The notes below the pieces were generated by a model, which saw only the letters and a program-made list of their open reading frames with translations, had not been told where the DNA came from and did not search any database. Below, in pieces: positions 28,647-63,573 of a DNA stretch of 64,000 bases. The translations under genes and the position numbers were made by a program. The stretch lies in contig NZ_JAAIYP010000038.1 in NCBI RefSeq assembly GCF_011022235.1, positions 310,001 to 374,000 on the forward strand, in the 5' to 3' direction. Each line of letters begins with the position of its first letter. Within the stretch, counting starts at the first letter, position 1. Origin of the DNA: Magnetospirillum aberrantis SpK (GTDB lineage Bacteria > Pseudomonadota > Alphaproteobacteria > Rhodospirillales > Magnetospirillaceae).

Positions 28647-28730
28647 GCCCCGGTGGTGAAATGGTAGACACGCCTGACTCAAAATCAGGTGCTGAGAGGC
28701 GTGCTGGTTCGAGTCCGGCCCGGGGCACCA
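28647..28730 (+). tRNA. tRNA-Leu(CAA), element-borne
   Basis: The acceptor GCCCCGG pairs with CCGGGGC followed by ACCA. The anticodon stem CCTGA/TCAGG encloses CTCAAAA, giving anticodon CAA for the TTG codon. It has a long variable arm and the T-arm GCTGGTTCGAGTCCGGC. It differs from the split host tRNA in the acceptor, D-arm and anticodon stem, so it is not a simple duplicate, but it has the same anticodon. It lies between the left att core and the integrase, hence inside the element. Confidence 0.95.
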
Positions 28731-28753
28731 ACCTTTAGAGTTGGGTGCAGCAC

Positions 28754-30082
28754 ATGCCCAGACGCATTGACGACCCTTGGCGCAAACTGCGCGATGGCAA
28801 TGTCGTCCTCAAAATCCGCAAAGGCTCATCTTATTGGCAAGCGCATCTGAAGGTGCGCGGCGAATGGATCAGGCTGTCCACCGGCAAGACCGACATCCGC
28901 GATGCCGGGCAATGGGCCTGCGACCAATACGACGACATGATGTATCGGGTGCGGCACAAGCAGGTGCCACGCACGAAGCTGATCCGGGACGCCACGGCGC
29001 AGTACATCCAAGACCTGGAAAGCAGCAACCTCGTCAGCGCGGACGATTACCGCCGCACGATCAAGAAATGGATCGACCCGCACCTTGGCGGCAAGAAACT
29101 CGACGAAATCAGCCCGCAGGACATTATCGGCTGGAACGCCTGGAAGCGCCTGCAACACGGCAAACCGTTCAGCAAATCGACGGTCACCAGCCATAACGCC
29201 TGCCTCAGCAACGTCTTCAAGACAGCGGTGCGCTACGGCTGGATGAACGAATGGCAGGTTCCCAAGCTCGTCAATGACGGCGAGCCGGGCATGCGCCGCC
29301 CCCACTTCGACGAAGACGAAATCGCGCCCTTGCTGGTCAAGATGTGGGATCTGATCCCCGAAGGCCGGAAGCAGAAAACCCGCGAAATCCGCCAGTTGCT
29401 CTACTACTACGTCAGCATCTTGCTGCTGACCGGCGCACGCCCCGGCAAGGAATTGGATAACCTTCGCTGGCGGCAGGTGGACCTTGCCTGGGAACGGGAA
29501 GGTCAGAAGTTCGTCAAGATCATCATAACCGCAGGCAAAACCATCAAATACAGCCGGGTACGTCAGCGGGCGATCACCGCACCGGCTGGGGTAGCGGCCC
29601 CGCCCTTCAAGGCGCTGATGGCATGGCAAGGCCCCGGCAAGGATGATGACGATTTCGTGTTCCGGCTGCCCGACGGAAGCCGGATCGGCAACATGCAGTC
29701 GTCGTTCCGGACGGTCCTGGAAAAGATCGACATGCTGTACGACAAGGGCGACCCACCAACGCGGCGGACCCTGTACTCGTTCAGGCACTCCTACGCGACG
29801 ACGCAGATCGTCCACGGCACCATGTCGCTGATCGAGCTGGCAACCCACATGGGCACCAGCGTCGCCATGCTGGAACAGCACTACGCCCATTTGGGGCCAC
29901 TGGCGATTGCCCCGAAGGTGGCGGCGAACGCGGTCTTGATCAGCCCTCACGTTGCGGCTGGTGCGTTCAATGACGGCCAGCCCCACGATACCAGCAAGAA
30001 GCGGCAGAAGCCCGAAACCCGCAAAGCATCTCCCGCAATCCCGAAGAGCTTGGCCGCCGCGCTGGCCGAGAAAGAGGATTAA
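28754..30082 (+). CDS. Tyrosine recombinase/site-specific integrase
   Basis: The 442-residue integrase is the likely enzyme for insertion at the tRNA-Leu core. It has an N-terminal arm/core-binding region and a catalytic domain with Arg I in LLTGARPGKELDNLRW, the box II segment TLYSFRHSYATTQI (Tyr in place of the usual first His), and LATHMGTSVAMLEQHYAHL with the His and the Tyr nucleophile. The ATG at 28754 is used; a GTG three codons upstream is possible. It starts 23 bases after the element tRNA, oriented away from attL. Confidence 0.92.
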   Translation: MPRRIDDPWRKLRDGNVVLKIRKGSSYWQAHLKVRGEWIRLSTGKTDIRDAGQWACDQYDDMMYRVRHKQVPRTKLIRDATAQYIQDLESSNLVSADDYRRTIKKWIDPHLGGKKLDEISPQDIIGWNAWKRLQHGKPFSKSTVTSHNACLSNVFKTAVRYGWMNEWQVPKLVNDGEPGMRRPHFDEDEIAPLLVKMWDLIPEGRKQKTREIRQLLYYYVSILLLTGARPGKELDNLRWRQVDLAWEREGQKFVKIIITAGKTIKYSRVRQRAITAPAGVAAPPFKALMAWQGPGKDDDDFVFRLPDGSRIGNMQSSFRTVLEKIDMLYDKGDPPTRRTLYSFRHSYATTQIVHGTMSLIELATHMGTSVAMLEQHYAHLGPLAIAPKVAANAVLISPHVAAGAFNDGQPHDTSKKRQKPETRKASPAIPKSLAAALAEKED

Positions 30083-30705: not shown

Positions 30706-32400
30706 ATGGACGGCGCGAACGTTGTGGAACCGGGCTTTGAGGACGCGATCAAGGAAGTCGAGGCCGTCGTCGCCGAGTTCGATGAGCGGACCAAGGACGA
30801 GCACCAATCCCAGCGTGAGAAGAACCTCGCCCTCTATGCCGCCTTGGAGCGCGCCTTCGTGTTCCACAACACCTGGGGCGATAAGCCCCAATATGCTGAT
30901 CTGCTTCAGCGCAAGGGCGTGAAGGCGGCGGCGCGCGGCAAGAAGGCCAGCCGCTTCCTTCCCACCGTGAAGGCGTTCTTCGATCCTGACCTGGATGGCT
31001 TTGCCCCCATCGACGAAGACGGAAAGGCCGCGAAGAACCGCCGCCAGAAAGCGGTCAGCACCTATAGCGCCGCGTTGGAACTTGCTGCCGCTAAACGCCC
31101 CAACGATGTCGCCGCCTTCATTGAAGACGTGCGCGGCGTTGAAGAGGCACGAAAGCTGTGGGGGCAGCTTCAGAGCGAAACCGACGAAGCCAAAAAGGCC
31201 GTGGCCGAGGCCAAGGAAACCCGACAGAAGACCTTCGATGCCGGGCTTGCCGCATTGATGGCGACGAAGACCGCATCCCTTCCCCGCGATGAGGCGTTGA
31301 AGGGCAAGGTCGCTTTGGCGGCGGTCTATTTCGACGATGCGGGTGTCGCCCATTTCCTCGGCACGCCCGCCGAGGATGACAGCAAGACGCTGCTTGAGAA
31401 ATTCGTCATTGCCAATGCGCCGGAAAAGGCCAAGAGCAAGCGTGGGCGCAAGCCGGGCACCCTGAACAGCAACAGCAGCAAGACCGCGCTGGATCGGCTG
31501 CTAAAGCTGTTCAACGCCAGCAAGCTGTCCCAGACCAAGGTGATGATCAAGATCATCAACGGGGAGGATGGCTGCGAGGTCCGGGTGTCGCAGAACAGCC
31601 GCAACACCTGCATGCTCAAGGCCCGGCTAATCCGCCAGGACTACCTGCCGCCGGGCACCTACTGGTTCGGCACGCGCGCCATCGGCTTCATGAAGAAGTT
31701 CGCGCTGCTCGGCAAGTTCGGCGCCAAGTTCACCATCGACGGCCCCAGCGAATTGGATTCCGTCCGCGCCACGGTGGCGATCACCGCCACCAACTACGAT
31801 GCGGCGGTCGCGGCGTATGACGAGGCCAAGAGCATCAAGTGGTCGGAACGCGACCTTGTTCCCGGAACCACGTCCTACATCACGCGCGGCGAGGACAGCC
31901 TGACCGTCCGCTTCGAAACGGTTATCGACAAGATGGCCCGCGTCGAGGTGGACGAGGCGAAATGGGCGACTGTCCCATTGGAGGGTGCGTTCGCCGATTG
32001 GTACGCGGCGACGTTGGGGATTGCCAAGGACAAGGCCGATAGCCGTTTGCGGAAGGCCATCCATGGCGAGGCCACATTGATGAAGGTCACCGCGCATGAA
32101 TGGGCGCTGTTGGACGAGCAGGGGACGATAGAGCCTGTCCACCATTTCACCTCGCCCATCGGTGACGGCAAGCTCGCTACCGAGATCAAGGTTGCCGCTG
32201 GCGAAATCCAGGCGGCGATCAAGAGCGTCAAGGAACTGGCCCCTGGTGGCGAGGTCACGCTGTCCTTGGTCAACAAGCTCGTCCGCGTCAGTGCGGCGAC
32301 GGACAGGAACGCGGCGGAAATCTTCATTCCGTCCCAGACCAACAACAAGCGGCATGCGGAATACACGGTGTTTGAGCCTGTGCCTGTTGCTTCAACGTAG
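30706..32400 (+). CDS. Large hypothetical protein (564 aa)
   Basis: A soluble protein with no recognised family. Residues 1-60 are acidic and helical. Residues 100-190 are Ala/Glu/Lys-rich and likely coiled-coil (LWGQLQSETDEAKKAVAEAK). A basic linker (KAKSKRGRKPGTLN) near residue 245 precedes a mixed alpha/beta C-terminal half. The last 120 residues (LATEIKVAAGEIQAAIKSVK, then VTLSLVNKLVRVSAATD) faintly resemble a sliding-clamp-like beta/alpha layout, but this is impression only. Codon use is GC-rich and host-like. It is preceded by palindrome copy 1. Confidence 0.7.
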   Translation: MDGANVVEPGFEDAIKEVEAVVAEFDERTKDEHQSQREKNLALYAALERAFVFHNTWGDKPQYADLLQRKGVKAAARGKKASRFLPTVKAFFDPDLDGFAPIDEDGKAAKNRRQKAVSTYSAALELAAAKRPNDVAAFIEDVRGVEEARKLWGQLQSETDEAKKAVAEAKETRQKTFDAGLAALMATKTASLPRDEALKGKVALAAVYFDDAGVAHFLGTPAEDDSKTLLEKFVIANAPEKAKSKRGRKPGTLNSNSSKTALDRLLKLFNASKLSQTKVMIKIINGEDGCEVRVSQNSRNTCMLKARLIRQDYLPPGTYWFGTRAIGFMKKFALLGKFGAKFTIDGPSELDSVRATVAITATNYDAAVAAYDEAKSIKWSERDLVPGTTSYITRGEDSLTVRFETVIDKMARVEVDEAKWATVPLEGAFADWYAATLGIAKDKADSRLRKAIHGEATLMKVTAHEWALLDEQGTIEPVHHFTSPIGDGKLATEIKVAAGEIQAAIKSVKELAPGGEVTLSLVNKLVRVSAATDRNAAEIFIPSQTNNKRHAEYTVFEPVPVAST

Positions 32401-32630: not shown

Positions 32631-34193
32631 ATGACTGAAGAGCTGAAGCGGCTGTCTGAGCGGTCAATTCGGAAATTGAACAACGAGGAGGCATTCGACC
32701 ATATAGGTCGACTTATTGATCTTTCAGGGGATGCCGCCTTTGCTCGTGGATTAGAGCGCGCCCTTACTTTGCTCGACGAGTTGGAAAAGCGCGATGTGAC
32801 GATCGGACAGGGCGCTGTGATCCACTATTTCCGGGCCAATGTTTGGAGCCTCAAGGCTGAACTCGCCGGTCATAAACGGTCTTGGGCTTGGGAGCAGCCT
32901 GAAACGCAGCAAGAGATTTTGTCTCTGTCGCATGCGGTGTCGCACGAAGGCTTTGAAAAACTGCATCCGATACGGCAATGCCAAATACTTACAAATCGGG
33001 CCAATCTTCTTAACGGCGTCGGTCGTTTCGTTGATGCGTTAGAAAGTTGGGATCGTGCGCTGCGGATACTGCCGAAATTTGCGATGGCACTTGGCAATCG
33101 CGCCCGGGGGCTTGGCTTTTACGCACGTGCCCTGCATGACCCTGGCCATCAAGGGCTTTTCTGGCTGCATGCTCACGACGCTGCTGTAAAGGCAGGCGCT
33201 GATGATGCGTTGTTCGACAGCTTTTACCCTGGGCTGAGTGAGCAATTCGGAGCGATGGCGGTCAGTATCGCACAGAATGTCCCTGTGGACATGATCCGCG
33301 AGAGCCAGAACCTGGATGGGTTTTCACTTGGCCGCAGCAAGCGCGAGAAAGCTTATCGGCGCTGGTGTTTGGAGGAACGTTTGTTTCTCAACCCCCTTAA
33401 TGACTTAGGCGCACATTCAATCGCAGCCAACGATGTTCTGACCCTGCCATCGCTAACAGAGATCAAGCCGCCAACGCGGCCCGGATTTGCGCCGCCGATT
33501 ATTGGTTTTTTCAATCAAATGAAGCAGGAGTTTGCGTCGGCGCGTTTCATGCTGTTCGAAGGGCTGATCGCTGAAGGCGTTCATTTCTCCGACAAAGATG
33601 TGCTCCTCTATAATACCCTGGATTATCCTAGTTACTCTCTTGCTATGGAGCGCGTGCGAACAAGCTTTCGTATCGCTTATTCATTGCTCGATAAGACTGC
33701 CTTCCTTATCAATGACTATTGGTGCCTGGGGAAGCGACCGGATCAAATAAACTTTCGTAACGTGTGGATGGTGGAAGGCAAGAAAACTCTGCTTCCGGCT
33801 TTCGAGGAATATGAAAACTGGCCCTTGCGCGGTTTGTTCTGGCTTTCCAAGGAAATTCATAATGAGGCTCTGAAGGGTGCGACCGCCCCTGATGCTCGGG
33901 AGTTGCATGATTTGCGTAATCACCTTGAGCATAAATACCTACAGGTGCATGAGGGATGGGCTGTGGCAGGGTTTGTGGACGCCTTTGCCACCGGCGAACT
34001 CGGCAAATCGCTTTCGAGCCACGAAATGGAAGCGAAGGCGCTGAGGGTCATGAAGATCGCGCGGTCTGCCCTCTGCTATCTTTCGCTCGCAATCGGCCGT
34101 GAAGAGGAATTGCGCGACAGCAAGCGGCCAGACGGCCCGGTGTTCTCGATGCCACTTTCCACATGGGATGATGCTTGGAAGCGTTCCCGGTAG
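32631..34193 (+). CDS. TPR-HEPN protein (LA2681-like HEPN domain)
   Basis: A 520-residue protein with helical, TPR-like repeats in the first about 170 residues (QCQILTNRANLLNGVGRFVD then ALESWDRALRILPKFAMALG) and a C-terminal HEPN domain of LA2681 type (FRIAYSLLDKTAFLINDYW, then FWLSKEIHNEAL). The HEPN ribonuclease motif R-x4-H is intact as RNHLEH (Arg429, His434). HEPN proteins often act as RNases in toxin-antitoxin and phage-defence systems. Lower GC and relaxed codon use differ from neighbours and point to recent transfer. No obvious antitoxin partner is adjacent. Confidence 0.75.
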   Translation: MTEELKRLSERSIRKLNNEEAFDHIGRLIDLSGDAAFARGLERALTLLDELEKRDVTIGQGAVIHYFRANVWSLKAELAGHKRSWAWEQPETQQEILSLSHAVSHEGFEKLHPIRQCQILTNRANLLNGVGRFVDALESWDRALRILPKFAMALGNRARGLGFYARALHDPGHQGLFWLHAHDAAVKAGADDALFDSFYPGLSEQFGAMAVSIAQNVPVDMIRESQNLDGFSLGRSKREKAYRRWCLEERLFLNPLNDLGAHSIAANDVLTLPSLTEIKPPTRPGFAPPIIGFFNQMKQEFASARFMLFEGLIAEGVHFSDKDVLLYNTLDYPSYSLAMERVRTSFRIAYSLLDKTAFLINDYWCLGKRPDQINFRNVWMVEGKKTLLPAFEEYENWPLRGLFWLSKEIHNEALKGATAPDARELHDLRNHLEHKYLQVHEGWAVAGFVDAFATGELGKSLSSHEMEAKALRVMKIARSALCYLSLAIGREEELRDSKRPDGPVFSMPLSTWDDAWKRSR

Positions 34194-34422: not shown

Positions 34423-36009
34423 ATGGTGCCGCCGTCGAACCGCGATGAGCTGCGCAAGGCAGTTATTATTGCGCTTTACCCCGTTGTCTGGGTTCTGGCC
34501 CACAAGGCGGCGGTGGCGATGAATGTTGGCCCCGGCGTCAGCATTTGGTATCCGCCCGCTGGACTGACCTTCGCCTTTCTTCTCCGCTTTCCCCGGTTCT
34601 GGCCGCTGGCCTATATGGGTATCGGATATGTGGTGCTGCTTGGCCCCTATGCCGTCACCACGCCCGGCGCTTGGCTGTCCTGGCTGATCCCGCCAACCGG
34701 CTATGTGGTTGGTGTTGCACTGCTGCGGCGCTGGCTTGGCGAGCCGCTGGACCTCAGCCGTCAGGCCCATATCCATCGCTTCATCGCCGCATCACTGGCG
34801 ACGCCCGCCATTGTTGCCGCCGTCAACGTCCTCAACTTCTGCGCCGATGGCGCCATCCCGTGGTCGGAATACGGCCCGCTGGCCGCCCGCTTCTTCATTG
34901 GCGACGCGCTGGGCATCGTTACCCTCGCGCCCACCTTGTTGCTGCTGAATCGTCCGTGGCGTTCTCATTTTCGTCAACGGGATGGGCGTGTGCTGTTTGT
35001 CGGTCTGCTGGCGACCGCCTTGATCCTGTACCTGGAAGTGGCGGAACTGCTGCTGGGGCATGACCAGGGGCGCTTCTCCTATTTCGTCATGCTGCCGGTG
35101 GCGTGGAACGCGGTGGCCTTCGGCGTGCTGGGTGCGGCCTTGTCTACCTTGCTCGCCAATGTGTCGATCACGGCGGCCAGCCTGTTGCGGCCCGACCAAT
35201 CCATCCTGGCTGGTGCTCCCTATTTCATGCTGTCCATCGGCTATCTCAGCCTGATCATCGCTGGAGCAATCGAGGACCGCGAAGGGGCGTTGCGCAAACT
35301 GCGCAAACAGGAAACAGCCTTGGACAAGGCATACCGCCACTTCACCACGCACGAAACGGCGTCCAAGCTGGCGCACGAGATCAGGCAGCCCTTGGCCTCG
35401 GCCTCCACCTATGCGCAGGCGCTGCACACCATGGCGGAACGGGGACGCGTCGATCCGGTGGAACTGCCGGAAATCACCGGACGGCTGGAGCGCGAGGTAC
35501 TGCGGGTGCGCGAGATCATCGCCGCCAACCAAGCGCAGTTCGACCAGGCCACCGGCAGACGTGAAATGCTGACGTTGGCGGCGGTGATGGGCGACGTGGT
35601 GCCGCTGCTGCGCCAGATTTGCGACGACAGCGGGGTATCGGCTCAATTCGAGTTGGGCGGCTGCACGGCCAAAATCTTGGGCGACCGCGCCACCCTTCAG
35701 CAACTGGCGGTCAATCTGGTCCGCAATGCCTGCGAGGCGATGGCCGCTGTGTCGCAGCGGGCATTGCTGGTTGCGCTGACGGAAGAGAGCGGCAAGGCCG
35801 TGCTGCGCGTGCAGGACAGCGGCCACGGCTTTGCGGAAGAAACGTTGCGCAACGGCCATGCCCTGTTCGCCTCGGCCAAGCCGGGCGGCAGCGGCTTCGG
35901 CCTGCCTATCGCCCGCGCCATTCTGACCGCCCATGGCGGCGATCTTGAGATCGCCAACAACCCCGATGGCGGCGCCTGCGTCACCTGTTGGCTGCCGGTA
36001 GCGGCATGA
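34423..36009 (+). CDS. MASE1-domain sensor histidine kinase
   Basis: A 528-residue membrane histidine kinase. The N-terminal about 285 residues form roughly eight helices of the MASE1 sensory domain (PGVSIWYPPAGLTFAFLLRF, GDALGIVTLAPTLLLL). A HisKA segment follows with the phospho-acceptor His in KLAHEIRQPLASAS, then a HATPase domain with NLVRNACEAM, DSGHGFAEE and GGSGFGLPIARAIL. The overlap of its stop with the response regulator start (ATGA) makes them a pair. The signal sensed is unknown. Confidence 0.9.
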   Translation: MVPPSNRDELRKAVIIALYPVVWVLAHKAAVAMNVGPGVSIWYPPAGLTFAFLLRFPRFWPLAYMGIGYVVLLGPYAVTTPGAWLSWLIPPTGYVVGVALLRRWLGEPLDLSRQAHIHRFIAASLATPAIVAAVNVLNFCADGAIPWSEYGPLAARFFIGDALGIVTLAPTLLLLNRPWRSHFRQRDGRVLFVGLLATALILYLEVAELLLGHDQGRFSYFVMLPVAWNAVAFGVLGAALSTLLANVSITAASLLRPDQSILAGAPYFMLSIGYLSLIIAGAIEDREGALRKLRKQETALDKAYRHFTTHETASKLAHEIRQPLASASTYAQALHTMAERGRVDPVELPEITGRLEREVLRVREIIAANQAQFDQATGRREMLTLAAVMGDVVPLLRQICDDSGVSAQFELGGCTAKILGDRATLQQLAVNLVRNACEAMAAVSQRALLVALTEESGKAVLRVQDSGHGFAEETLRNGHALFASAKPGGSGFGLPIARAILTAHGGDLEIANNPDGGACVTCWLPVAA

Positions 36010-36626
36010 CCGAAACGCCCTTTGTTGTGGCTGTCGTCGATGACGACGCCAGCTTCCGCGAGGCCATCGTGTGGTTGTTGCGGACCAACGGCTACGACGC
36101 CCGCCCCTACGGCGATGCCGACAGCTTCATCGCCCAGCACAATATCCGCGCCATCGGCTGTGCCCTGGTCGATCTGCGCTTGGGCGAGGATTGCGGCATA
36201 GAGGTATTCCTGCGCTCACGGGCACACGGTCACGACATGCCGGTGATCATGATTTCCGGCCACGGTGATATTCCCACCGCCGTCAAGGCGGTGCAGCAAG
36301 GCGCGATGGGATTCATCGAAAAGCCCATCGACAACGCCAAGCTGCTGGCCGATGTCGCCAGCGCCAGCGTCTACCATCGTGATTTCTGTGCCCGCTATGG
36401 CCGGGCGGTTGATGCGATGCGGCTTTACGGCCTGTTGACCGTGCGTGAGCAGGAGGTGTTCTGGCTGCTGGTCAATGGCAAGGCAACCAAGGAAATCGCG
36501 AGCGAACTAGATATCAGCATTCGGACTGCTGAGGTGCATCGAACGCGAGTTTTTGAAAAAATGCGAGTGAACGGATTGGCTGACTTAGTCGGCATGTCAA
36601 AGCATTGCACTCGGCAGGCAATCTAG
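36006..36626 (+). CDS. FixJ-like response regulator
   Basis: A 206-residue two-domain regulator. The receiver has the acidic pocket VDDDASF, the phospho-acceptor Asp in ALVDLRLGEDCGIEVF and Lys in GFIEKPIDN. The C-terminal LuxR-type helix-turn-helix is LTVREQEVFWLLVNGKATKE followed by RTAEVHRTRVFEKM. It is coupled to the MASE1 kinase upstream. It is clearly paralogous to the orphan regulator at 44341-44970. Confidence 0.92.
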   Translation: MTETPFVVAVVDDDASFREAIVWLLRTNGYDARPYGDADSFIAQHNIRAIGCALVDLRLGEDCGIEVFLRSRAHGHDMPVIMISGHGDIPTAVKAVQQGAMGFIEKPIDNAKLLADVASASVYHRDFCARYGRAVDAMRLYGLLTVREQEVFWLLVNGKATKEIASELDISIRTAEVHRTRVFEKMRVNGLADLVGMSKHCTRQAI

Positions 36627-36710: not shown

Positions 36711-38270
36711 ATGCCCCAAACTGCGTTCCATGGCGATGACCTTCTTGTCGCGGCAGACATCACCGATCCTTTGCAATGGGAACGGGTGCGGAAATGGAGC
36801 AAAACCAATCAGCTATTAACGAGTTGCTGCCGGACGCGCGCTACAGCCGTGCAAAATGAAAACGGCTTTAGGTTCTTCCGCCACCATACTGCTCCGAAAA
36901 ATTGCGAAGCCGGCAAGGAAAGCATTGAGCACGAAAAGTTAAAGGCGGAAGCTTACCTTGTTGCCAAGCGATGTGGCTATCTTGCGCAAATGGAGGCCTC
37001 TGGCCCCAACTGGCGTGCTGATGTCCTTGTTACGCACCCCGTGACAGGAGAGCAGTCGGCGATTGAGATACAGAAATCTGACCAGAAAAATCACGAGACT
37101 CGTGAACGCGTCGAACGTCACAACGCTTCGGGTGTCAGGAGCGTTTGGTTCTTTCTACGAAAGCAGGATTATGAAGAAGTTCCGCCAGACCTTATCGGGC
37201 AAGGACTCCCTGCTTTCCTTCTTCGGGAGAAGAGCACGGAGGAACGGATACGTGAACTCGGAGGTCTTCTGACTGCCCTATTGAAGGGAAGCATGGTTTA
37301 TGACAAAGGCAGCGATCTCGCCAAGGTTCCGCTTGCATTAATTGGATACAACTATCCTTGCGGACACTGTGGCCAGCAGTGGTTCCGAACGACATTCGCG
37401 GTGGCCTATCCAAACCGTGTTCGCGGAGGGAACAAGCCTATGGCCATTCCCTTAGCAGAGGCTTCATTCGGGGAGCAGGCACTAAGCAAGCTTCGTCAGT
37501 TGACCCAGCTAACTCCCGGAAAGACGCTTAAAGTCGCCCCCAACGTGGAACAAAACTTGATCTGCCCTCATTGCGGGGCCATGCCAGATCGTGAATTTCT
37601 CACCGAGGATGTCGCGCTTCAATGCCCGTACCCTAACTTTGTCGGTGCCATCGATATTCGACAACACTTAGGGTTCAAGCCAGGATGGCGCAAGGTTCGC
37701 CCACCAGAGCCTGAGGCAACGATGCCCGTTCAGCAATGGCAGCAAATTATTCAAGAACGGTTGCGGAATATTACTGATGAAAGGGAGCGGCAGGCACAGG
37801 AGCGGGAGCGCCAGAGGATAGTGCGTGAGGAGCAGGCTCGCCGCCGCCGCGAGCAAAGGACAGAGGAGCTTTGCAAACGCGAGTTAAGCGCCCTTGAACA
37901 TCGACTGACCCCCTTAATGTCAGGGACTGAAATTACGACTTGGCTCAACCAGCCCAGTCAAGACCTAGCTGGCCTCTGCCCAATCTCTTCGATCAGAGAA
38001 CATGCAAATAAACATTGGCAAGAACCATCGGCACCCCAAAGCGAGCCTGTTCGCATTATATCGTCAATTGCGGACGGTTCATTGCAAAATAATGCCGGTA
38101 TTCTCGGCTTAACCGAAGAACAACAGCTACTTATTCTCCGCAACAGCAGACATCAGCGGCGCGCGCAGCGCCTTGCGTCTGCCGAAAATTTTGGCTCGAA
38201 GGTCACTGCATTTGGCGGCCTCCTTATAGGAGCGGCGATCGACAAGATACGCTTCCGCGCAAAAAAGTAG
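36711..38270 (+). CDS. CoiA-like PD-(D/E)xK nuclease-family protein
   Basis: A 519-residue protein with a CoiA-like nuclease core near residues 70-135. It reads ESIEHEKLKAEAYLVAKRCG, then NWRADVLV with Asp104, then SAIEIQKSDQ with Glu119 and Gln121, the usual D-ExQ arrangement. Two zinc-ribbon pairs follow (CGHCGQQW and CPHCGAM), then a long charged coiled coil around residues 345-395 and a C-terminal helix. It is lower in GC than its neighbours, suggesting separate acquisition. CoiA proteins are known from competence; here a restriction or defence role is equally possible. Confidence 0.65.
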   Translation: MPQTAFHGDDLLVAADITDPLQWERVRKWSKTNQLLTSCCRTRATAVQNENGFRFFRHHTAPKNCEAGKESIEHEKLKAEAYLVAKRCGYLAQMEASGPNWRADVLVTHPVTGEQSAIEIQKSDQKNHETRERVERHNASGVRSVWFFLRKQDYEEVPPDLIGQGLPAFLLREKSTEERIRELGGLLTALLKGSMVYDKGSDLAKVPLALIGYNYPCGHCGQQWFRTTFAVAYPNRVRGGNKPMAIPLAEASFGEQALSKLRQLTQLTPGKTLKVAPNVEQNLICPHCGAMPDREFLTEDVALQCPYPNFVGAIDIRQHLGFKPGWRKVRPPEPEATMPVQQWQQIIQERLRNITDERERQAQERERQRIVREEQARRRREQRTEELCKRELSALEHRLTPLMSGTEITTWLNQPSQDLAGLCPISSIREHANKHWQEPSAPQSEPVRIISSIADGSLQNNAGILGLTEEQQLLILRNSRHQRRAQRLASAENFGSKVTAFGGLLIGAAIDKIRFRAKK

Positions 38271-38381: not shown

Positions 38382-39527
38382 ATGCACACCATCTGGATAT
38401 TGTCGCTGGAACCCATCGAGACGCGCTACACGGCGCAGTGGTTCGCGGGCGTTCCCCGGCAAATCGCGGCCCATGCCGAGGCCAACGGGATCGTGGCGCA
38501 GGTTCACATGGACCCGATGGGCTTCGGCCAGGAAGCCATCGACAGCGGTATGCTCAACATCGTCAACGTGCCGGGTGATGGCGGCACGCAGCGTGCCAGT
38601 GCCGGGGCATTCCTCAACTTCGCCACCACCAATCTGTGGAAGAACCAGCAGGTCAACCGCTTCATCGGCATGGTCGAGGCGGGCTTAGTCCGCGATGGAG
38701 ACAAGGTGCTGGTCACCGATGCGTGGCACCCCGGTATCCTGCAACTCGCCTACATGCGGAACTTACTTGATGTAAGTTGGGAAATTTCGGCGATCTGGCA
38801 TGCGGGTTCCTATGACCCTTGGGATTTCCTCGGGCGCGCCATCACCGACAAACGATGGTCCTACGCCACCGAGCGGGCGATGTTCTGGGCCATCGACCGC
38901 AACTTCTTCACCACCTCGTTCCATTGGGGGCTGTTCTCCCGAGTCCTCAAGATCGATGACGACGAGATGGGCGACCACGCCGCCTATAGCGGCTATCCCA
39001 ACGAATACCTGTGGGACGAACTGGCGCCGCACCGCCTGCCGCCCGAGCAACGCCCCAATCTGATCCTGTTCCCCCACCGGCTGGCCCCGGAAAAACAGCT
39101 CGACATTTTCAAGGACTTGGCCGCCACCCTGCCGCAATACGAATGGGTCGTGTGCCAGGAACAGGCCCTGAGCAAGCTGCAATACCACGCGCTGCTGGGC
39201 CAAGCCAAAATGTCGTTCAGCGCCGCGCTGCAAGAGACGCTGGGCATCGCCCAGGCCGAGGCCACCATCGCCGGGGCCATGCCGCTGTCACCCCGGAGAC
39301 TGGCCTATAACGAGCAATACAGCGCGCCGTTCCTGTATCCCAGCGACTGGACGGCCAATTGGGAAGCCTATCGGGCCAACAAGGACTTCCTGGTCTCCTA
39401 TATCCGCACGCTGATGGACGATTACGACACGCCCAGGATGCAGGCGGAAATCGCCCGGCAGGAGCAGGCACTGAAGGCGCGATACCTGACCGCCACGCCC
39501 CTTTACCAGCATCTCGTGGGGGCATGA
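38382..39527 (+). CDS. GT-B glycosyltransferase (GT4-like)
   Basis: A 381-residue glycosyltransferase, first gene of the 7-deazaguanine operon. The C-terminal nucleotide-sugar half reads NLILFPHRLAPEKQLDIFKD, then MSFSAALQETLGIAQAEATI, which places the donor-binding Glu. The N-terminal acceptor half has no close match to known cell-surface enzymes. The ATG at 38382 is preferred to an upstream TTG. Its stop overlaps the next ATG (ATGA). Palindrome copy 3 lies within its coding sequence. The acceptor is unknown; from its operon the modified base is a candidate. Confidence 0.75.
   Translation: MHTIWILSLEPIETRYTAQWFAGVPRQIAAHAEANGIVAQVHMDPMGFGQEAIDSGMLNIVNVPGDGGTQRASAGAFLNFATTNLWKNQQVNRFIGMVEAGLVRDGDKVLVTDAWHPGILQLAYMRNLLDVSWEISAIWHAGSYDPWDFLGRAITDKRWSYATERAMFWAIDRNFFTTSFHWGLFSRVLKIDDDEMGDHAAYSGYPNEYLWDELAPHRLPPEQRPNLILFPHRLAPEKQLDIFKDLAATLPQYEWVVCQEQALSKLQYHALLGQAKMSFSAALQETLGIAQAEATIAGAMPLSPRRLAYNEQYSAPFLYPSDWTANWEAYRANKDFLVSYIRTLMDDYDTPRMQAEIARQEQALKARYLTATPLYQHLVGA
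38759..38779. repeat. Element palindrome copy 3 (inside a gene)
   Basis: GAACTTAC-N5-GTAAGTTG lies within the GT-B gene, encoding residues around MRNLLDVSWE. It is the only copy inside a coding sequence. Confidence 0.7.
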
Positions 39528-39868
39528 TGGCGCGGCGCATGATCTATGTGACCTTCCGCAAGCGCGGCCTGCACCGCTATGCCGGTGCCCCCGCCGAGGT
39601 CGATTATCTGGCCCACACCCACCGGCACACCTTCTGGTTCAAGGTGTCCATTGAGGTGCGCCACAACGACCGCGACATCGAATTCCACCTTTTCCAAGAC
39701 TGGCTGGAATCGCTGTACGACGCCCGCACCCTCGGCCTCGACGGGCGAAGCTGCGAGATGATGGCAGAGGAACTTTATACGCGGATCGCCGAACGCTATC
39801 CGGGCCGCGCGGTGGAAATCGATATCAGCGAAGACGGTGAAAACGGAGCGGTGTTGTCATGGGCATAG
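39524..39868 (+). CDS. Small T-fold protein, QueD-like
   Basis: A 114-residue protein resembling a reduced 6-pyruvoyl-tetrahydropterin synthase/QueD fold. A His-rich strand (YLAHTHRHTFWFKVSIEV) takes the place of the QueD HGH zinc motif, and the CEMMAEELYTRIAERYPGRA helix followed by VEIDISEDGENGAVL resembles the QueD C-terminal half. The N-terminal catalytic Cys region is missing. It overlaps the glycosyltransferase stop and the transglycosylase start, so all three are co-translated. It may be a pterin-binding accessory protein; catalytic function is doubtful. Confidence 0.55.
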   Translation: MMARRMIYVTFRKRGLHRYAGAPAEVDYLAHTHRHTFWFKVSIEVRHNDRDIEFHLFQDWLESLYDARTLGLDGRSCEMMAEELYTRIAERYPGRAVEIDISEDGENGAVLSWA

Positions 39869-41469
39869 AGATCGATCCCAGCCTGGATTACCGGCATTGG
39901 CGCAAGGATTTCGCCTCGGTCTTTCCCGCCATTCACAGCAGCTTCTATGCCTATTCCAAACGGGATGACGTGTTCCAAGCCATTAAGGAGCACGGTTTCC
40001 GTTCGTTCGACCAGTTCAACTACCTCAGTGATGAGGGGCTGTTTCGGTACGATGCGGCGCTCTACAGCGCGGGCGGAGCGTCCACCCTCGACGTGGAGCG
40101 GTCAATGGTCAACGACGCGCCCCTTTATCGGCGGCGCAAGGACACCACAGTCATCAGCGACAGCGGCGGCTTCCAGGTCTACCAGGGGATTTGGACCCCG
40201 GACGAGTACCACGGCAAGCGTGCCGAGATCCTGGCATGGCAGGAAGCCATCAGCGATATCGCCATCGCCATGGACGTGCCCACCGGCAGCGTCCACAGCG
40301 ACAAGGCGGATTGCATCGACAGCTTCGAGGAATGCCTGACCTGGACCAAGCTGAATTGCGATTGGCTGATCCAGAACCGCGATCCCCGCAAGGCCCGCAT
40401 GCTGAACGTCATGCAGGGCTTGTCTGTGGACGGCCCCGATGGTGCGCTTGCTTGGTACGAAGCGATCAAGGGCTATTGCGACCGTAGCAAGTGGGGCGAG
40501 CAAGCCTTCGACGGCTGGGCCTTCGGCGGCATGGCCGTGCGCAATCGCAGCGCCATCCTGCGCAGCGTCGCCCGCATGCTGCGTGACGGCGTTCTTGGAC
40601 CGGACAGCAACCAGCGTTGGATACATATGCTGGGCATCACCGGCCCCGAGGACGTGGCGTTCTTCACCTTGCTGCAACGGGCCTTGCGCAAGGTGCTGAA
40701 GGATGACGGCTTCACCGTGAGCTGCGACGCCTCCAATCCCAATTCCGAGATGGGGAAGCGCCGCCAGTATTATGCGGAGGGCGCGCAGGGCATCAAACTG
40801 CGCAAGGCGCTGGAGATGGAGTTCTTCGACTATCACGGAGGCGACACGCCCGATCTTGCCCAATTCGTCCGCGATTGGGTCGGCATGCACCCGGACGCGC
40901 TGACCTTCGACATCGGCTGGTTCCGCGACCACATGGAACTGCTGGATTGGGATTTCGACCTCAGCCGCTGCGCCGAGGACGACGAGATCGAGATCGGCGC
41001 TGAATTCGTGCAGGACAGCCCGGACTTCCTGCTGGCCGCCTATGACCGGCTGGTCGAGGTGCCAGCCTTCAAGGCGTTTGCCGTCGAACGGCTGAACGCC
41101 CATCCCGGTTTCGTCGAGTTTATCCTTGATCGAGTGGTGGATAGCGCCAAGGCCCTGGGCACCAGCGCGCTCGCCGAGCATCTGACCACGGAGAATTACT
41201 GGAAGCTGGTCGAGATGAAGTCGCCACGGAGCGGCGCGGCGGCGGCGACCGACGACGATTCCGACGTGGAAGACGGCACGAGGCCGGATCGCCTGACCCC
41301 CATGGGCTACATCGTCCACACCTGTATCAGCCAGGAAATTTACCTGCGCTACACCTACGAGGGCGCGGCGGCGGAAATCGAGAAATGGCCGGAGCTGGCC
41401 GATGAGTTGGCGGACGCCCTGGTCAGCGAGACGCCGGATACGAAGCTCTCCACCCTGCTTGTCCCCTGA
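39859..41469 (+). CDS. Guanine transglycosylase-like enzyme (DpdA/TGT family)
   Basis: A 536-residue protein whose first 320 residues follow the tRNA-guanine transglycosylase barrel: SDSGGFQVYQG with Asp101, LNVMQGLSVDGPDG, the GWAFGGMAVRNRSAI substrate loop, RWIHMLGITGPEDVAFF and VSCDASNPNSE with the nucleophile candidate Asp290. The TGT zinc motif CxCxxC is not seen and a 200-residue C-terminal extension is present, both unlike housekeeping Tgt. DpdA enzymes swap guanine for a 7-deazaguanine in DNA. Its operon with QueD and element location favour a DpdA-like role, but an RNA target is not excluded. Confidence 0.8.
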   Translation: MGIEIDPSLDYRHWRKDFASVFPAIHSSFYAYSKRDDVFQAIKEHGFRSFDQFNYLSDEGLFRYDAALYSAGGASTLDVERSMVNDAPLYRRRKDTTVISDSGGFQVYQGIWTPDEYHGKRAEILAWQEAISDIAIAMDVPTGSVHSDKADCIDSFEECLTWTKLNCDWLIQNRDPRKARMLNVMQGLSVDGPDGALAWYEAIKGYCDRSKWGEQAFDGWAFGGMAVRNRSAILRSVARMLRDGVLGPDSNQRWIHMLGITGPEDVAFFTLLQRALRKVLKDDGFTVSCDASNPNSEMGKRRQYYAEGAQGIKLRKALEMEFFDYHGGDTPDLAQFVRDWVGMHPDALTFDIGWFRDHMELLDWDFDLSRCAEDDEIEIGAEFVQDSPDFLLAAYDRLVEVPAFKAFAVERLNAHPGFVEFILDRVVDSAKALGTSALAEHLTTENYWKLVEMKSPRSGAAAATDDDSDVEDGTRPDRLTPMGYIVHTCISQEIYLRYTYEGAAAEIEKWPELADELADALVSETPDTKLSTLLVP

Positions 41470-41487
41470 CCACACGGAGTTGATGGC

Positions 41488-41832
41488 ATGTTCGCGAACG
41501 CATTTGGCGCCAAGAGGCCGACCAAGGCCGAGTTGACCCGCATCCAGCGGGAATTGAAGCGCGATCCCACCTCGAAGTTCTCTCGCGAGATAGTGGCCCC
41601 ATATGGCGAGACGGTCGAGACCAACGACGTTTTGCGGGTCTTGGACGCATGGTGCGTCAAGAACGGAGAACCGATCCCGAGCTGCCGCGTGGAGAATGAC
41701 TTCACCGGGGCCGTGACATCGGTCTTTTGGGAAAGCGTGGACCGTTATGGTCTGCGCCGACCGGGAGAGACTGACGCCCAAGTTCTTGAGCGTATCCGCG
41801 ACGAAAACAAATCCTTCAACGACGAACTATGA
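41488..41832 (+). CDS. Hypothetical protein in the 7-deazaguanine operon
   Basis: A 114-residue soluble protein with no recognised domain. It starts MFANAFGAKRPTKAEL and has a charged helical N-terminus and a VFWESVDRYGLRRPGE segment. The ATG follows CACGGAG, and its TGA overlaps the queD ATG, so it belongs to the operon. It could be a specificity or DNA-contact partner; nothing in the sequence shows this directly. Confidence 0.65.
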   Translation: MFANAFGAKRPTKAELTRIQRELKRDPTSKFSREIVAPYGETVETNDVLRVLDAWCVKNGEPIPSCRVENDFTGAVTSVFWESVDRYGLRRPGETDAQVLERIRDENKSFNDEL

Positions 41833-42440
41833 TCATCCGCAAGCTGTTCCGGTTCGAGAACGCCCATGTGGTGCGCAACTGCTCGACCCGCCGCTGCGCC
41901 CTCAGCCTGCACGGTCACAGCTATCGGGTGGAACTGCTGCTGACCGCCTCACGGTTGGACAACGCCGGGATGATCCTGGATTTCGGCCTGCTCAAGGGCG
42001 CGATCAAGGAACTGATCGATTCCTGGGATCATGCCGCCTGCTTCTGGGATCGTGATGACCCCGAGTACATCGCCTTCATCCAGCGGCACAGCGAGCGGTG
42101 GGTGTCCGTGCCGGTGAACCCCAGCGCCGAGCAGTTCAGCCGGGTGTTCTTCGCTCTGGTCGATGCGGTGCTGACCGCGACCGAATTCGGCAATGGGGAG
42201 CAGGGCGTGTCGCTCGACAGCGTTATCGTCCACGAAACCGATACGGGCTATGCCCAATGCTGGCGCGATGATGCGTTCAGCCCCGATATGGGCGGTCCCA
42301 TCGCGCTGGACCAGATCGTTTTCAGCGATGCTATCCGCGAGGAATGGAGCGATCCGCATCTGTGGGCGCGGGTCGTCGATGCCCGCAAGCACGGCACAGC
42401 GTTGTTCTGTCACCCACTGCCCGAGCAGCAAGTCCGATGA
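41829..42440 (+). CDS. queD: 6-carboxy-tetrahydropterin synthase QueD
   Basis: It converts dihydroneopterin triphosphate to 6-carboxy-tetrahydropterin, the second step toward preQ0. The 203-residue T-fold protein has zinc ligands His13, His28 and His30 (FENAHVV and LHGHSYRVE), catalytic Cys23 five residues before HGH, and a C-terminal HETDTGYAQCW with the conserved Glu. It is longer than E. coli QueD (about 120), with an insertion after residue 60 and extra C-terminal residues. It overlaps its neighbours by 4 bases on both sides. Confidence 0.88.
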   Translation: MIIRKLFRFENAHVVRNCSTRRCALSLHGHSYRVELLLTASRLDNAGMILDFGLLKGAIKELIDSWDHAACFWDRDDPEYIAFIQRHSERWVSVPVNPSAEQFSRVFFALVDAVLTATEFGNGEQGVSLDSVIVHETDTGYAQCWRDDAFSPDMGGPIALDQIVFSDAIREEWSDPHLWARVVDARKHGTALFCHPLPEQQVR

Positions 42441-43210
42441 AAGCGCGCATCATCTCCTACATGGGCGAAGGCGAGGAGCTTCAGCGCAAGCGCCTCGCAT
42501 GGCACAACCAGCAACTCGACTGGCTGCTGGAACGTGGGCTTGAGGTCGTGGTGTTTGACCAGGGCTACCGCGAGAACTGGTATCGCACCGATCCGGCCAT
42601 CACCTATGCCCGCTACAAGGGGCCGTTGCTGCGTCCTGGTCCCGCCCGCAATCCACTGCTGGAGGACTTTTACGCCAGCGGCGAGACATGGACGGTGATG
42701 GCCGACAACGATGCCGTCCTGCTCGACCAGATGGACGGCCATGCGATCTTCGGCCTATTGCCCGAGGTGGCGGAAAACATCCACATCTTCAGTCCGATCA
42801 ATGGCGCGGTGCGGGGCTATCCCTGGAAGGACGAACCCGCGTTCTTCGAGCATTACCTCGTCTTCGAGCGCTATGTCGAATTGAAGGGCAGTTTCTGGTT
42901 TCTGCGTCAGCCGCCAGCCCCACTTTGGTTTCGCGACATGATGATCGGCGAGGATGGTGATTTTGTCTTTCAGGCCGTCATGGCGGGGCTGGGCGTGTTT
43001 CAATGCCACAATATCGCCTTGCGGGAATTCGCCGGTCAGGCATCGACGCTGTTCGACGCCGAGACGCGCAGGCGGGTGCATGCCGAGGGCAAGGCGTTCT
43101 TCGCCGACACCTATCCCGGCATGCGGTTCGAGAAGGGTAAGCTGCACAAGAAGGATTTCATCACCCGCTATTGGCAAGGACCGCGCAGCCATACCATCCG
43201 CAAGCCCTAA
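42437..43210 (+). CDS. GT-A glycosyltransferase-like protein (DxD)
   Basis: A 257-residue protein, last gene of the operon. The N-terminal half resembles a nucleotide-diphospho-sugar transferase fold, with the metal-binding DxD as VMADNDAVLLD near residue 95. FRDMMIGEDGDFVFQAVMAG and LGVFQCHNIALREF follow as in GT-A enzymes. It may glycosylate the deazaguanine base or a protein; the neighbourhood favours the base. Its 3' end overlaps the convergent gene by 4 bases. Confidence 0.65.
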   Translation: MKARIISYMGEGEELQRKRLAWHNQQLDWLLERGLEVVVFDQGYRENWYRTDPAITYARYKGPLLRPGPARNPLLEDFYASGETWTVMADNDAVLLDQMDGHAIFGLLPEVAENIHIFSPINGAVRGYPWKDEPAFFEHYLVFERYVELKGSFWFLRQPPAPLWFRDMMIGEDGDFVFQAVMAGLGVFQCHNIALREFAGQASTLFDAETRRRVHAEGKAFFADTYPGMRFEKGKLHKKDFITRYWQGPRSHTIRKP

Positions 43211-45302: not shown

Positions 45303-45875
45303 ATGAAGCAGGCCAAGGTTCTGAGCGAGAGCGAGCTGAAGCGTGTGCTTGCCGTCATCGCCAGCAGGAAGCACGCGGCCCGCAACCGCGCCGCCCTCAT
45401 GCTCAGTTTCTATGCCGGGATGCGCGTAGGTGAGATCGCCGCCCTGACCGTCAAGGACGTGCTGACCGGCGACGGCCAGGTCAAGGATCAAGTCCTGCTG
45501 CGCGGCGCCATCACCAAGACCGGCGAGGCGCGGGCGGTGTTCGTGGGCGACAAGCTGCGCAAGGAACTGGAACGCTATGTGGCCGCGCTGAAGGTGGCCC
45601 AGCGTCCCGGCGACACCCCGTTTCTGCTGACGCAGAAGCAAACTGCGTTTTCGCCCAACACGCTGTGCCAGTTGTTCACCAACCTCTATGCGGCGGCGGG
45701 CATTGATGGGGCCAGCAGCCACAGCGGACGGCGCTGGTTCATCACCCGGCTCGCCCATTCCGGCGTGTCGGCCAAGGTGATCATGACGCTGGCCGGGCAC
45801 CGGCACCTCAGCACCACGCAACGCTATATCGAGGTCAACGACGCCATGATGCGGGCGGCGGTGGAAATCCTCTGA
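45303..45875 (+). CDS. Small tyrosine recombinase (catalytic domain only)
   Basis: A 190-residue recombinase with Arg I in SFYAGMRVGEIAALTVKD, a box II segment SSHSGRRWFITRLAH, and TLAGHRHLSTTQRYIEVND with His and the Tyr nucleophile. It lacks most of an N-terminal core-binding domain, so it resembles single-domain phage-type recombinases. It may resolve element multimers or act on a different site from the main integrase. It begins with ATG behind an AGGTTTCAGCC leader. Confidence 0.85.
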   Translation: MKQAKVLSESELKRVLAVIASRKHAARNRAALMLSFYAGMRVGEIAALTVKDVLTGDGQVKDQVLLRGAITKTGEARAVFVGDKLRKELERYVAALKVAQRPGDTPFLLTQKQTAFSPNTLCQLFTNLYAAAGIDGASSHSGRRWFITRLAHSGVSAKVIMTLAGHRHLSTTQRYIEVNDAMMRAAVEIL

Positions 45876-52954: not shown

Positions 52955-52958
52955 GCCG

Positions 52959-58347: not shown

Positions 58348-58974
58348 TCAACGCAATCCCAGAATTTTGTGCAATTGCAGGCCCAGTCGCCATTGCGGGT
58401 GCTTCAGGCAATATTCCGTAGCTGCAACCGTGTTTGCGGCGACATCGTCTCCATCCATGGGCTGGAGGAAGAAGTGCTTGAAGGCCAAGCCAACGAAACG
58501 TTGAGGATCGACGCCGGGTTGGGGGAAGACCAATTTCAGTTCGTCGCCTTCGGCCACCTGTAGCGGAGCATTGGCTTTGGGGCTGACACATAGCCAATCG
58601 ATGCCAGGACAACGTGGCTGTGTGCCGTTGGTTTCTACCGCGATCTCAAACCCAACAGCGTGAAAAGCGGCGCACAGCTTTTCGTCCAGTTGCAACAACG
58701 GTTCGCCGCCGGTACAGATGACCAATGGACGGCCACCTTCGGCATGCGACCAAAGAGACATTGCCGCAGCGGCCAAATCATTCGGGTCGGTAAAGCTGCC
58801 CGCGTCAGCACCGACGAAATCGGTGTCGCAGAATTTGCAGATGGCTTTCTCCCTGTCGGAGTCTCGACCAGACCACAGATTGCAGCCCGTGAAACGGCAG
58901 AACACAGCCGCGCGTCCAGCTTGCGCGCCTTCGCCTTGTAACGAGTAGAACATCTCTTTGGTTGCGTATGGCAT
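58348..58974 (-). CDS. queE: 7-carboxy-7-deazaguanine synthase QueE (radical SAM)
   Basis: It converts 6-carboxy-tetrahydropterin to 7-carboxy-7-deazaguanine (CDG) using SAM and a 4Fe-4S cluster. The 208-residue protein begins EMFYSLQGEGAQAGRAAVFC; its cluster ligands are Cys31, Cys46 and Cys49, the C-x14-C-x2-C form known from Burkholderia-type QueE instead of CxxxCxxC. CTGGEPLLQLD, FEIAVETNGTQ and KHFFLQPMDG follow. It lies 15 kb from queD, alone, between duplicated remnants. No queC or folE gene is in the window. Confidence 0.93.
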   Translation of the reverse strand: MPYATKEMFYSLQGEGAQAGRAAVFCRFTGCNLWSGRDSDREKAICKFCDTDFVGADAGSFTDPNDLAAAAMSLWSHAEGGRPLVICTGGEPLLQLDEKLCAAFHAVGFEIAVETNGTQPRCPGIDWLCVSPKANAPLQVAEGDELKLVFPQPGVDPQRFVGLAFKHFFLQPMDGDDVAANTVAATEYCLKHPQWRLGLQLHKILGLR

Positions 58975-59921: not shown

Positions 59922-59975
59922 ACTCAAAATCGACCGCCGCAAGGCTTGCTGGTTCGAGTCCGGCCTGGGGCACCA
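59922..59975 (+). repeat. attR of element 1: displaced tRNA-Leu(CAA) 3' half
   Basis: The core ACTCAAAAT (59922-59930) is followed by the anticodon-stem strand, variable arm, T-arm and acceptor CTGGGGCACCA that complete the 5' half at 28435. The copy at 63520-63573 is identical over this length. Confidence 0.9.
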
Positions 59976-60014
59976 TCGGGATGGGGAAGACGCTTCCCCA
60001 TCCGCCAACGGTCC

Positions 60015-61877: not shown

Positions 61878-61890
61878 GATGACCTCCTGC

Positions 61891-61926: not shown

Positions 61927-61957
61927 TGCGGGTTGAAGCGGATTCAGTGGTGGTCTG

Positions 61958-62419: not shown

Positions 62420-62440
62420 TCCAGTCCCCCCACATGACAA

Positions 62441-63519: not shown

Positions 63520-63573
63520 ACTCAAAATCGACCGCCGCAAGGCTTGCTGGTTCGAGTCCGGCCTGGGGCACCA
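63520..63573 (+). repeat. attR of element 2: second tRNA-Leu(CAA) 3' half
   Basis: A second copy of the core ACTCAAAAT and the complete tRNA-Leu 3' half with ACCA. Host DNA follows directly, with the MocR-type gene 80 bases further. Confidence 0.9.

Follow-up and report, generated by a model that had tools for sequence, protein, structure and literature searches.

An operon on a Magnetospirillum aberrantis mobile element, shared in its core with jumbo phages, as a candidate pathway for a glycosylated 7-deazaguanine in DNA

The operon and its gene core in phages

The window analysed here is a stretch of 64,000 nucleotides from Magnetospirillum aberrantis SpK (contig NZ_JAAIYP010000038.1, positions 310,001 to 374,000) which contains an integrative element bearing an operon of six plus-strand reading frames (38382-43210; overlaps of 4, 10, 4 and 4 bp, and one 18-bp gap). 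In order, these encode a glycosyltransferase-like protein (GT1), a small T-fold protein (Tf), a DpdA-like transglycosylase of 536 residues, a protein of 114 residues (U114), QueD, and a second glycosyltransferase-like protein (GT2). The reading that we favour, and consider probable though by no means secure, is that the operon replaces guanines in DNA by a base derived from 7-carboxy-7-deazaguanine (CDG) and then glycosylates it, i.e. that a phage-type hypermodification resides on an integrative element. An initial annotation, made from the letters of the window, had described an element-borne operon of six co-directional genes with five tight junctions, four of them overlapping, in which QueD, supported by QueE, accompanies two genes for sugar transfer. 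The reading frames agree with this; QueD is intact, QueE lies within the same element, and the element itself is marked by a tRNA-Leu gene, an integrase (28745-30082), and copies of the tRNA 3' end at 28702, 59947 and 63545.

The host genome carries its own FolE, QueC, QueD, QueE and Tgt, to which the element adds QueD and QueE. In the proposed pathway, host FolE together with the QueD and QueE of the element would supply CDG; Tf, a paralogue of QueD in which the zinc triad is retained and the catalytic Cys and Asp-His pair are missing, may act on CDG or a derivative of it; and the DpdA-like enzyme would exchange guanine in DNA for the CDG-derived base. GT1 would then attach a sugar from a nucleotide sugar, whilst GT2 would add a second or an alternative sugar. 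Guanines modified in this way could shield the DNA of the element, or of the cell, from nucleases.

The combination is not unique to the element; its core, GT1, Tf and a transglycosylase, is common in phages. Among 50,697 phage records, matches were obtained to the DpdA-like protein in 13, to GT1 in 15, to Tf in 27 and to GT2 in two (Phosso and DSL-LC06), one of the latter pair also holding the GT1-Tf-DpdA module. Tf was matched in all 15 GT1 records and the DpdA family in 12 of them, giving 12 jumbo-phage records in which the three occur together; since 11 of the 15 belong to one Pseudomonas phage group and ACP17 is counted twice, the GT1 records represent about four lineages. In PA5oct the DpdA, GT1 and Tf genes are contiguous, with QueE nearby; in Phosso, Tf adjoins GT1, followed by FolE and QueE, with DpdA and GT2 elsewhere in the record. 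ACP17 (one of its two records was read) has QueD, FolE, a TGT-like gene, GT1, Tf and QueE, and X1 has a gene for a 386-residue glycosyltransferase-like protein (matched at 23%), a TGT-like gene, Tf and QueE. The transglycosylase beside GT1 and Tf in these last two phages belongs to a different family, phrog_10773; the DpdA profile detects the ACP17 gene (E 7.6e-11), not that of X1, which is annotated as a queuine tRNA-ribosyltransferase. As GT1 and Tf are paired with phrog_10773 here, the glycosyltransferase appears to follow the base and not one particular transglycosylase.

The same core recurs in viral contigs, where an alignment query retrieved at least 575 DpdA relatives among 599 candidate stretches and at least 561 GT1 relatives among 600 (a single-sequence search gave one candidate stretch and no relative). 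The neighbours of the best 80 of each set were read, making 160 loci; some contigs are in both sets, the 145 DpdA loci corresponding to 134 distinct proteins. DpdA, GT1 and Tf stand together in 121 of the 160 (57 seeded on DpdA and 64 on GT1). Around the DpdA seeds we counted GT1 in 57, Tf in 64, FolE in 29, QueE in 14, QueD in four, QueC in one and GT2 in none of the 80 loci; around the GT1 seeds the corresponding figures were DpdA 65, Tf 75, FolE 49, QueE 45, QueD 17, and zero for both QueC and GT2. In the five GT1-seeded loci that lack Tf, GT1 starts no more than 1.31 kb from the locus edge, and 15 of the 16 DpdA-seeded loci that lack both Tf and GT1 have no more than 2.6 kb past DpdA, the sixteenth being L058 (loci are numbered with L, genomes with G). 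Where at least 5.5 kb is present on each side, GT1 and Tf each accompany DpdA in 31 of 32 loci, and DpdA, Tf and QueE accompany GT1 in 27, 29 and 26 of 29, respectively. Tf and GT1 are on the same strand in all 132 viral loci that hold both, no more than 500 bp apart in 115, and FolE, QueE or QueD is present in 93 of the 132.

The distribution of QueC, which converts CDG to preQ0 according to PMC13329287, informs on the nature of the base. QueC was found in none of the 132 viral loci holding GT1 and Tf, 54 of which contain QueE, and whole-record searches detected none in PA5oct, Phosso, ACP17, RHph_I1_18 and phiST (five of the seven records searched), with X1 giving a match under the threshold. 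Three loci of the DpdA family do carry QueC, and all of them lack GT1 and Tf: L058, the sole such locus among the 160; Vibrio phage 2.275.O, in which a clear QueC and a 7-cyano-7-deazaguanine reductase lie beside DpdA and no match to GT1 or Tf is present in the record; and L040, a short bacterial contig in which a DpdA-family gene is joined to a QueC-like gene. Because QueC was not found with GT1 and Tf, the base is probably derived from CDG and not from preQ0, so that Tf and GT1 would accompany a pathway stopping at CDG, as judged from viral loci that are partial. The initial annotation had listed preQ0 among the bases to look for; the same finding shifts the expectation to a CDG-derived one.

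Transglycosylase, T-fold protein and glycosyltransferases

The DpdA-like protein carries TGT-type motifs (DSGGFQ at 101-106, D139, QG at 186-187, and D290), of which D101, D139 and D290 are invariant in alignments of 20 and of 47 sequences. By analogy with Tgt, these three would be the catalytic Asp pair and the purine-binding Asp; D290 is presumably the nucleophile, an assignment made by motif position and not from an aligned profile. The match to Pfam TGT (PF01702) is below cut-off (14.0 versus 26.3 bits, E 0.026), and a profile of 20 sequences picks up PDB chains of Tgt (E 7e-4). For a model built from 47 sequences, the top Foldseek matches are Tgt (7a4x, E 6.1e-6) and QTRT1 (E 2.7e-4), and we assign the protein a predicted TGT fold; none of the 50 PDB matches listed bears the name DpdA. 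Viral structural matches comprise a protein of Vibrio phage nt-1 (E 5.3e-7), an unnamed entry of 596 residues, the same length as the Vibrio phage 2.275.O protein, and, weakly, a 259-residue protein of phiST (E 0.013), a phage in which a hypothetical gene of that length lies two genes downstream of its Tf.

The protein has no CxCxxC zinc motif, Cys occurring past residue 300 only at 371 and 489; both the presence of the active-site motifs and this absence had been noted in the annotation, correctly. As a distinguishing feature, the absence is not diagnostic. The alleles of the close relatives L007, L008 and L009, whose GT1 is 93-95% identical to that of the window (in L009 across 109 residues only), retain a Cys quartet at the corresponding place. 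The structural comparison proposed at the same time, of the 536-residue protein with DpdA and Tgt, gave a divided answer: the best PDB match is a housekeeping Tgt, yet the zinc site is missing, and the nt-1 phage protein is among the viral matches.

The TGT fold, and a tRNA Tgt as the best PDB match, lend some weight to a different reading, in which the transglycosylase acts on tRNA or another RNA and the glycosyltransferases glycosylate the product, as in mannosyl- and galactosyl-queuosine; glycosylated queuosine exists in animals. However, the host has its own Tgt, and 116 of the 160 viral loci have a neighbouring DNA polymerase gene, such replication genes favouring DNA as the target. In addition, the viral structural matches include a protein of nt-1, a phage whose DpdA2, possibly the product of the same gene, is described in PMC6884629. 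Modification of RNA is, on balance, improbable. Far more remote is a role in protein deazaguanylation, or in defence akin to type IV CBASS (cyclic-oligonucleotide-based antiphage signalling), where the transglycosylase would take the place of Cap10: the latter belongs to the TGT family (PMC11996544) and its structure matches the DpdA-like model at rank 19 (E 0.014), but no QueC-like Cap9 partner is present among the operon proteins, the catalytic TGT residues are kept, and no cyclase is found among the 10 element proteins scanned.

Tf was labelled a small T-fold protein in the annotation, and its model (pLDDT, the predicted local distance difference test score, of 95.9) upholds the label, which the sequence profiles do not. 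In the PDB the model is closest to E. coli QueD (E 2.3e-5), whereas profile comparison with QueD is not significant (hhalign probability 1.4% and 8.4%) and a PDB profile search gave nothing useful; the predicted structure thereby settles in favour of a QueD fold what sequence had left non-significant. The model runs strand, strand, helix, helix, strand, strand, with a short helix in the first loop. An alignment of 44 sequences shows no variation at H13, H29, H31, E74 and E99; the zinc triad (H13, H29 and H31) is kept, and there is neither an invariant Cys before the HxH motif nor an Asp-His pair. These residue roles are assumed from those in QueD, and the equivalence of residues was set by motif. 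A weak profile alignment pairs E74 and E99 with QueD E101 and E136, and tentatively these two mark the pterin-binding side. The QueD of the window itself (41829-42440) is a clear member of the PTPS family (PF01242, E 1e-22) and falls under the NCBIfam QueD equivalog cut-off (71.1 versus 89.25 bits).

As to what Tf does, Cui et al. (2023) are said to have named a CDG decarboxylase DpdL. Since decarboxylation leaves no obvious handle for a sugar, handling of the CDG carboxyl group by Tf is at least as likely as decarboxylation. Tf probably acts before GT1, as 12 of the 27 phage records with Tf have no GT1 match and no GT1 record is without Tf.

GT1 matches PF00534 below threshold (17.5 bits, cut-off 26.4), and its 43-sequence profile matched no PDB chain at E<=1; it contains the E-x7-E pattern of retaining GT-B enzymes, with E285 and E293 invariant in the 43 sequences. 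For GT2, no Pfam, PHROG or NCBIfam match was obtained and a PDB sequence search returned nothing useful; DxD (D90 and D92), ED (172-173) and ARN motifs, invariant in nine sequences, suggest a putative GT-A-like glycosyltransferase. A possible sugar supply is visible in the viral loci, where 10 cluster representatives from the 160 were scanned (three without a Pfam match) and those for sugar-nucleotide enzymes recur: NAD-dependent epimerase (36 loci), Gfo/Idh oxidoreductase (24), DegT aminotransferase (23) and UDP-glucose dehydrogenase (11). As such genes are common in large phages, this recurrence is supporting evidence only.

Several observations weigh against the favoured reading. The model of the DpdA-like protein has a mean pLDDT of 67.9, being confident only in the core and poor after about residue 300. 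One bacterial copy of the operon (L005) is without GT2, 13 of the 19 bacterial loci of the transglycosylase family that were read have neither GT1 nor Tf, and the 12 phage records with Tf and no GT1 match count in the same direction. The viral loci extend to no more than about 17 kb, so that genes may lie elsewhere in the genome; they are the best 80 of each set, many from related phages, and since clustering at 70% identity reduces the seeds to 7 and 23 groups, the loci are far from independent. The host's QueC makes preQ0 available in the bacterium, and the acceptors of glycosyltransferases are not predictable from sequence.

The last of these points, the copy without GT2 and the 13 loci without GT1 and Tf, together with the many glycosyltransferases that large phages carry, are also the case for an alternative in which the 7-deazaguanine in DNA is real and GT1 and GT2 are mere neighbours, glycosylating some different acceptor, for instance a further base or a glycan of the surface or the virion. 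Against this, GT1 is tied to Tf and to a transglycosylase across phages with two transglycosylase families, Tf and GT1 share a strand in all, and close spacing in most, of the viral loci holding both, and GT2 co-diverges with DpdA between operon types (see below) and occurs near DpdA without GT1 in L034, L036 and L037. We consider this alternative distinctly unlikely.

Operon copies, allele types and comparison with known systems

The operon is present in five of the 13 genus genomes (G000, G405 (twice), G411, G413 and G414); four of the five closest relatives are Magnetospirillum loci, and the fifth is from an uncultured Rhodospirillaceae bacterium. The survey for gene order that the annotation had suggested recovered the same order, with all six genes kept in L006, L007 and L008, which argues that the arrangement is not due to chance. 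L007 comes from Magnetospirillum sulfuroxidans J10. L005 retains four genes, without U114 and GT2, whilst in L009 GT1 is cut by the contig end and U114 is missing. The transglycosylase occurs in 12 of 55 family genomes and in 2 of 385 class genomes (the window's own genome is counted in both), and among 398 evenly drawn phylum genomes a full-length GT1 was confined to the one that contains the window, with short partial matches in three more. Of the 19 bacterial loci, six (the operon group) have GT1 and Tf; among the remainder, three have GT2 (L034, L036 and L037) and two have QueD, QueE and FolE (L033 and L038).

These last two loci carry a further DpdA-type operon from this bacterial family (L033 4453-12356, in G421; L038, in G423), composed of a D12 DNA methyltransferase, a 475-residue protein of no known family, the DpdA-like gene, QueD, QueE and FolE, with an AAA_15 ATPase in L033 and a small tyrosine recombinase adjoining; by family calls made on L033 only, it looks like another 7-deazaguanine island. 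In L037 (G412) the DpdA-like gene is split into two pieces, one on each strand, and genes resembling P564 and GT2 lie close by (P564 is listed in Table 1). A decayed second copy is present in the window's own genome (L227, G000:C45:133577-133867), where a GT1 fragment follows the remnant of a small gene, a gene which the element has as well, at 30261.

The operon genes are under purifying selection. Ratios of non-synonymous to synonymous substitution rates (dN/dS) against same-type copies are 0.04-0.15 for GT1, Tf, DpdA, QueD and GT2 of L006, and 0.10-0.16 for GT1, Tf, DpdA and QueD of L005; U114 is looser (0.62). The copies fall into two types, both of which are held by G405. In comparisons across types, the synonymous divergence of DpdA (0.97-1.0) and GT2 (0.74-0.90) exceeds that of GT1 (0.28-0.30), Tf (0.17-0.28), U114 (0.33-0.45) and QueD (0.35-0.65); among copies of a single type, GT2 stands at 0.36 and QueD at 0.32-0.65. 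DpdA and GT2 seem to have been exchanged as two separate stretches, since U114 and QueD sit between them, and their joint divergence suggests that each GT2 is matched to the product of its DpdA.

Exchange of the DpdA and GT2 alleles, with both types in one genome, would also fit diversified specificity in a restriction-modification system, in which self DNA would carry a mark made by the operon, and the slot immediately preceding GT1 would encode the restriction component. That slot holds a CoiA-type nuclease in the window (with a 97% copy in L005) and a gene with an Mrr nuclease domain in L007. In L006, however, it is occupied by a metallophosphatase, and in L008 by a DUF4427 protein on the other strand; PADLOC returned nothing under E 0.1 for the 10 element proteins scanned, and the NCBIfam and PADLOC scans named no system. 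As the slot gene is not conserved, restriction-modification was set aside as the principal explanation, and we judge it unlikely.

Returning to glycosylation of a CDG-derived base, a broader version of that proposal can be framed, which is possible yet doubtful. The phages and elements would share a widespread and as yet undescribed class of DNA base, a glycosylated CDG-derived 7-deazaguanine made with the help of a repurposed QueD (Tf), GT1 attaching the sugar via the 7-carboxyl or a group derived from it; Magnetospirillum elements would have captured this pathway, and their paired DpdA and GT2 alleles would write two self marks that coexist in one cell beside interchangeable nuclease genes. 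If true, a sugar would join the known 7-deazaguanine chemistries of DNA, and a phage hypermodification pathway would reside in a bacterial mobile element. The T-fold family phrog_17812 would gain a function, and a jumbo-phage gene neighbourhood that is annotated mostly as hypothetical would be explained. The responsible genes are named in isolated phages (the PA5oct group, Phosso, ACP17 and X1) and in Magnetospirillum strains, which makes the proposal testable by mass spectrometry.

The initial annotation did not recognise the combination as one already described. For the product, no report of glycosylated 7-deazaguanine in DNA was found among the titles and abstract beginnings listed in searches of the open-access literature; the gene core is widespread in phages. 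The nearest described systems are those of phages that modify DNA with 7-deazaguanines by DpdA or DpdA2, such as Enterobacteria phage 9g and Vibrio phage nt-1, which likewise have a TGT-fold transglycosylase alongside FolE, QueD and QueE genes (PMC6884629). The present module differs in that no QueC was found in its loci, in its regular partners (a QueD-paralogue T-fold protein and a glycosyltransferase), and in a transglycosylase remote in sequence (Pfam TGT E 0.026). The bacterial dpd islands (dpdA-K), as described in PMC11888242, are also mobile, with a DpdA-type enzyme and QueD. The window operon, unlike these, has glycosyltransferases, and DndB-type DpdB (PF14072) was found in none of seven genomes (the control registered in 2 of 14); no family of the dpdD-K-type restriction operon turned up among the 10 element proteins scanned, a scan that included no search per dpd gene.

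Cellulophaga phage phiST has QueD, QueE, FolE and a relative of Tf together, with QueC not found, and differs in having no GT1 match in its record; CDG- and DG-type base chemistry is reported by Cui et al. (2023) for phages such as this one. The glucosylated hydroxymethylcytosine DNA of T-even phages provides a parallel for a post-replicative sugar on a modified base (PMC13216743), although here the carrier of the sugar would be a deazapurine installed by base exchange. In type IV CBASS, with its Cap9/Cap10 pair, an enzyme of the TGT family is likewise linked to 7-deazapurines, there in a context of defence (PMC11996544); the partners are different, the operon having no QueC-like Cap9.

The element and its other genes

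Table 1. Features of the element in the window (att, attachment-site repeat)
Feature	Position	Strand	Remarks
tRNA-Leu (caa)	28647..28730	+	integration site; left att is its 3' end, 28702-28730
Tyrosine integrase of element	28745..30082	+	weak XerA-type match, E 0.0016; 76% to integrase beside tRNA repeat in G411
P564, 564-aa protein, family not assigned	30706..32400	+	accompanies operon in L005-L008
Membrane histidine kinase-like protein	34423..36009	+	label from sequence reading; 91-95% identity upstream of operon, L005-L008
Response regulator-like protein	36012..36626	+	label from sequence reading; 84-94% identity upstream of operon, L005-L008
Variable slot gene, CoiA-type nuclease domain	36711..38270	+	E 3.5e-6
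GT1, putative GT-B/GT4-like glycosyltransferase	38382..39527	+	E285, E293, HR 232-233, EK 237-238 unchanged across 43 sequences
Tf, QueD paralogue with a T-fold (phrog_17812)	39524..39868	+	ATG start at 39524
DpdA-like TGT-fold base transglycosylase (predicted), 536-aa allele without zinc site	39859..41469	+	
U114, 114-aa protein of unknown function	41488..41832	+	no match in L005, L009
QueD, full catalytic set	41829..42440	+	H13, C23, H28, H30, D67, H68, E101, E136
GT2, GT-A-like protein (ARN, DxD, ED motifs)	42437..43210	+	start common to relatives
Int190, 190-aa tyrosine recombinase-like protein	45303..45875	+	downstream of operon in L005-L009; from sequence reading and an annotated homologue
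QueE	58348..58974	-	88-95% to QueE of G405 and G414; 60% to host chromosomal QueE
Right att, repeat of tRNA-Leu 3' end (29 nt)	59947..59975	+	
Third att repeat, probably closing a second, small tandem insertion	63545..63573	+	

With tRNA-Leu and the integrase at the left, and copies of the tRNA end at 59947 and 63545, the element measures about 31 kb plus a tandem piece of 3.6 kb (Table 1). In G411, exact 19-base copies of the att repeat flank the related operon on both sides, one of them beside an integrase. An empty integration site was not seen, the right flank (63574-64000) matching 1 of 13 genus genomes, the window's own. The 3.6 kb between the two right-hand repeats (59975-63573) is likely a second tandem insertion, and G411 has a similar piece of 2.7 kb.

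P564 is truncated in L005 and L006 by the end of the locus, and partial homologues lie near other bacterial DpdA-like genes (L034, L037 and, weakly, L032). A 244-residue family of unknown function, phrog_12062, is present in 128 of the 160 viral loci, immediately upstream of DpdA in the examples read (for example L128 7270-8004); the idea that it is the counterpart of the P564 C-terminus, as a clamp-like partner, was dropped (hhalign probability 0.1-0.9%). A family of 175 residues, the representative of which has no Pfam or PHROG match, is present in 118 of the 160 (for example L111 6317-6844).

Between P564 and the histidine kinase-like gene, the window encodes a HEPN_LA2681 protein (32631-34193; E 2.4e-70), with 99% identity in L005. 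An Int190 homologue is found near the DpdA-like gene in 12 of the 19 bacterial loci (the window, L004-L009, L031, L033, L034, L038 and L039), several of the other seven being short or at contig ends. By sequence reading, the att-bounded element also contains genes resembling a resistance-nodulation-division (RND) metal efflux set (51281-56075) and a two-component pair (48995-51114).

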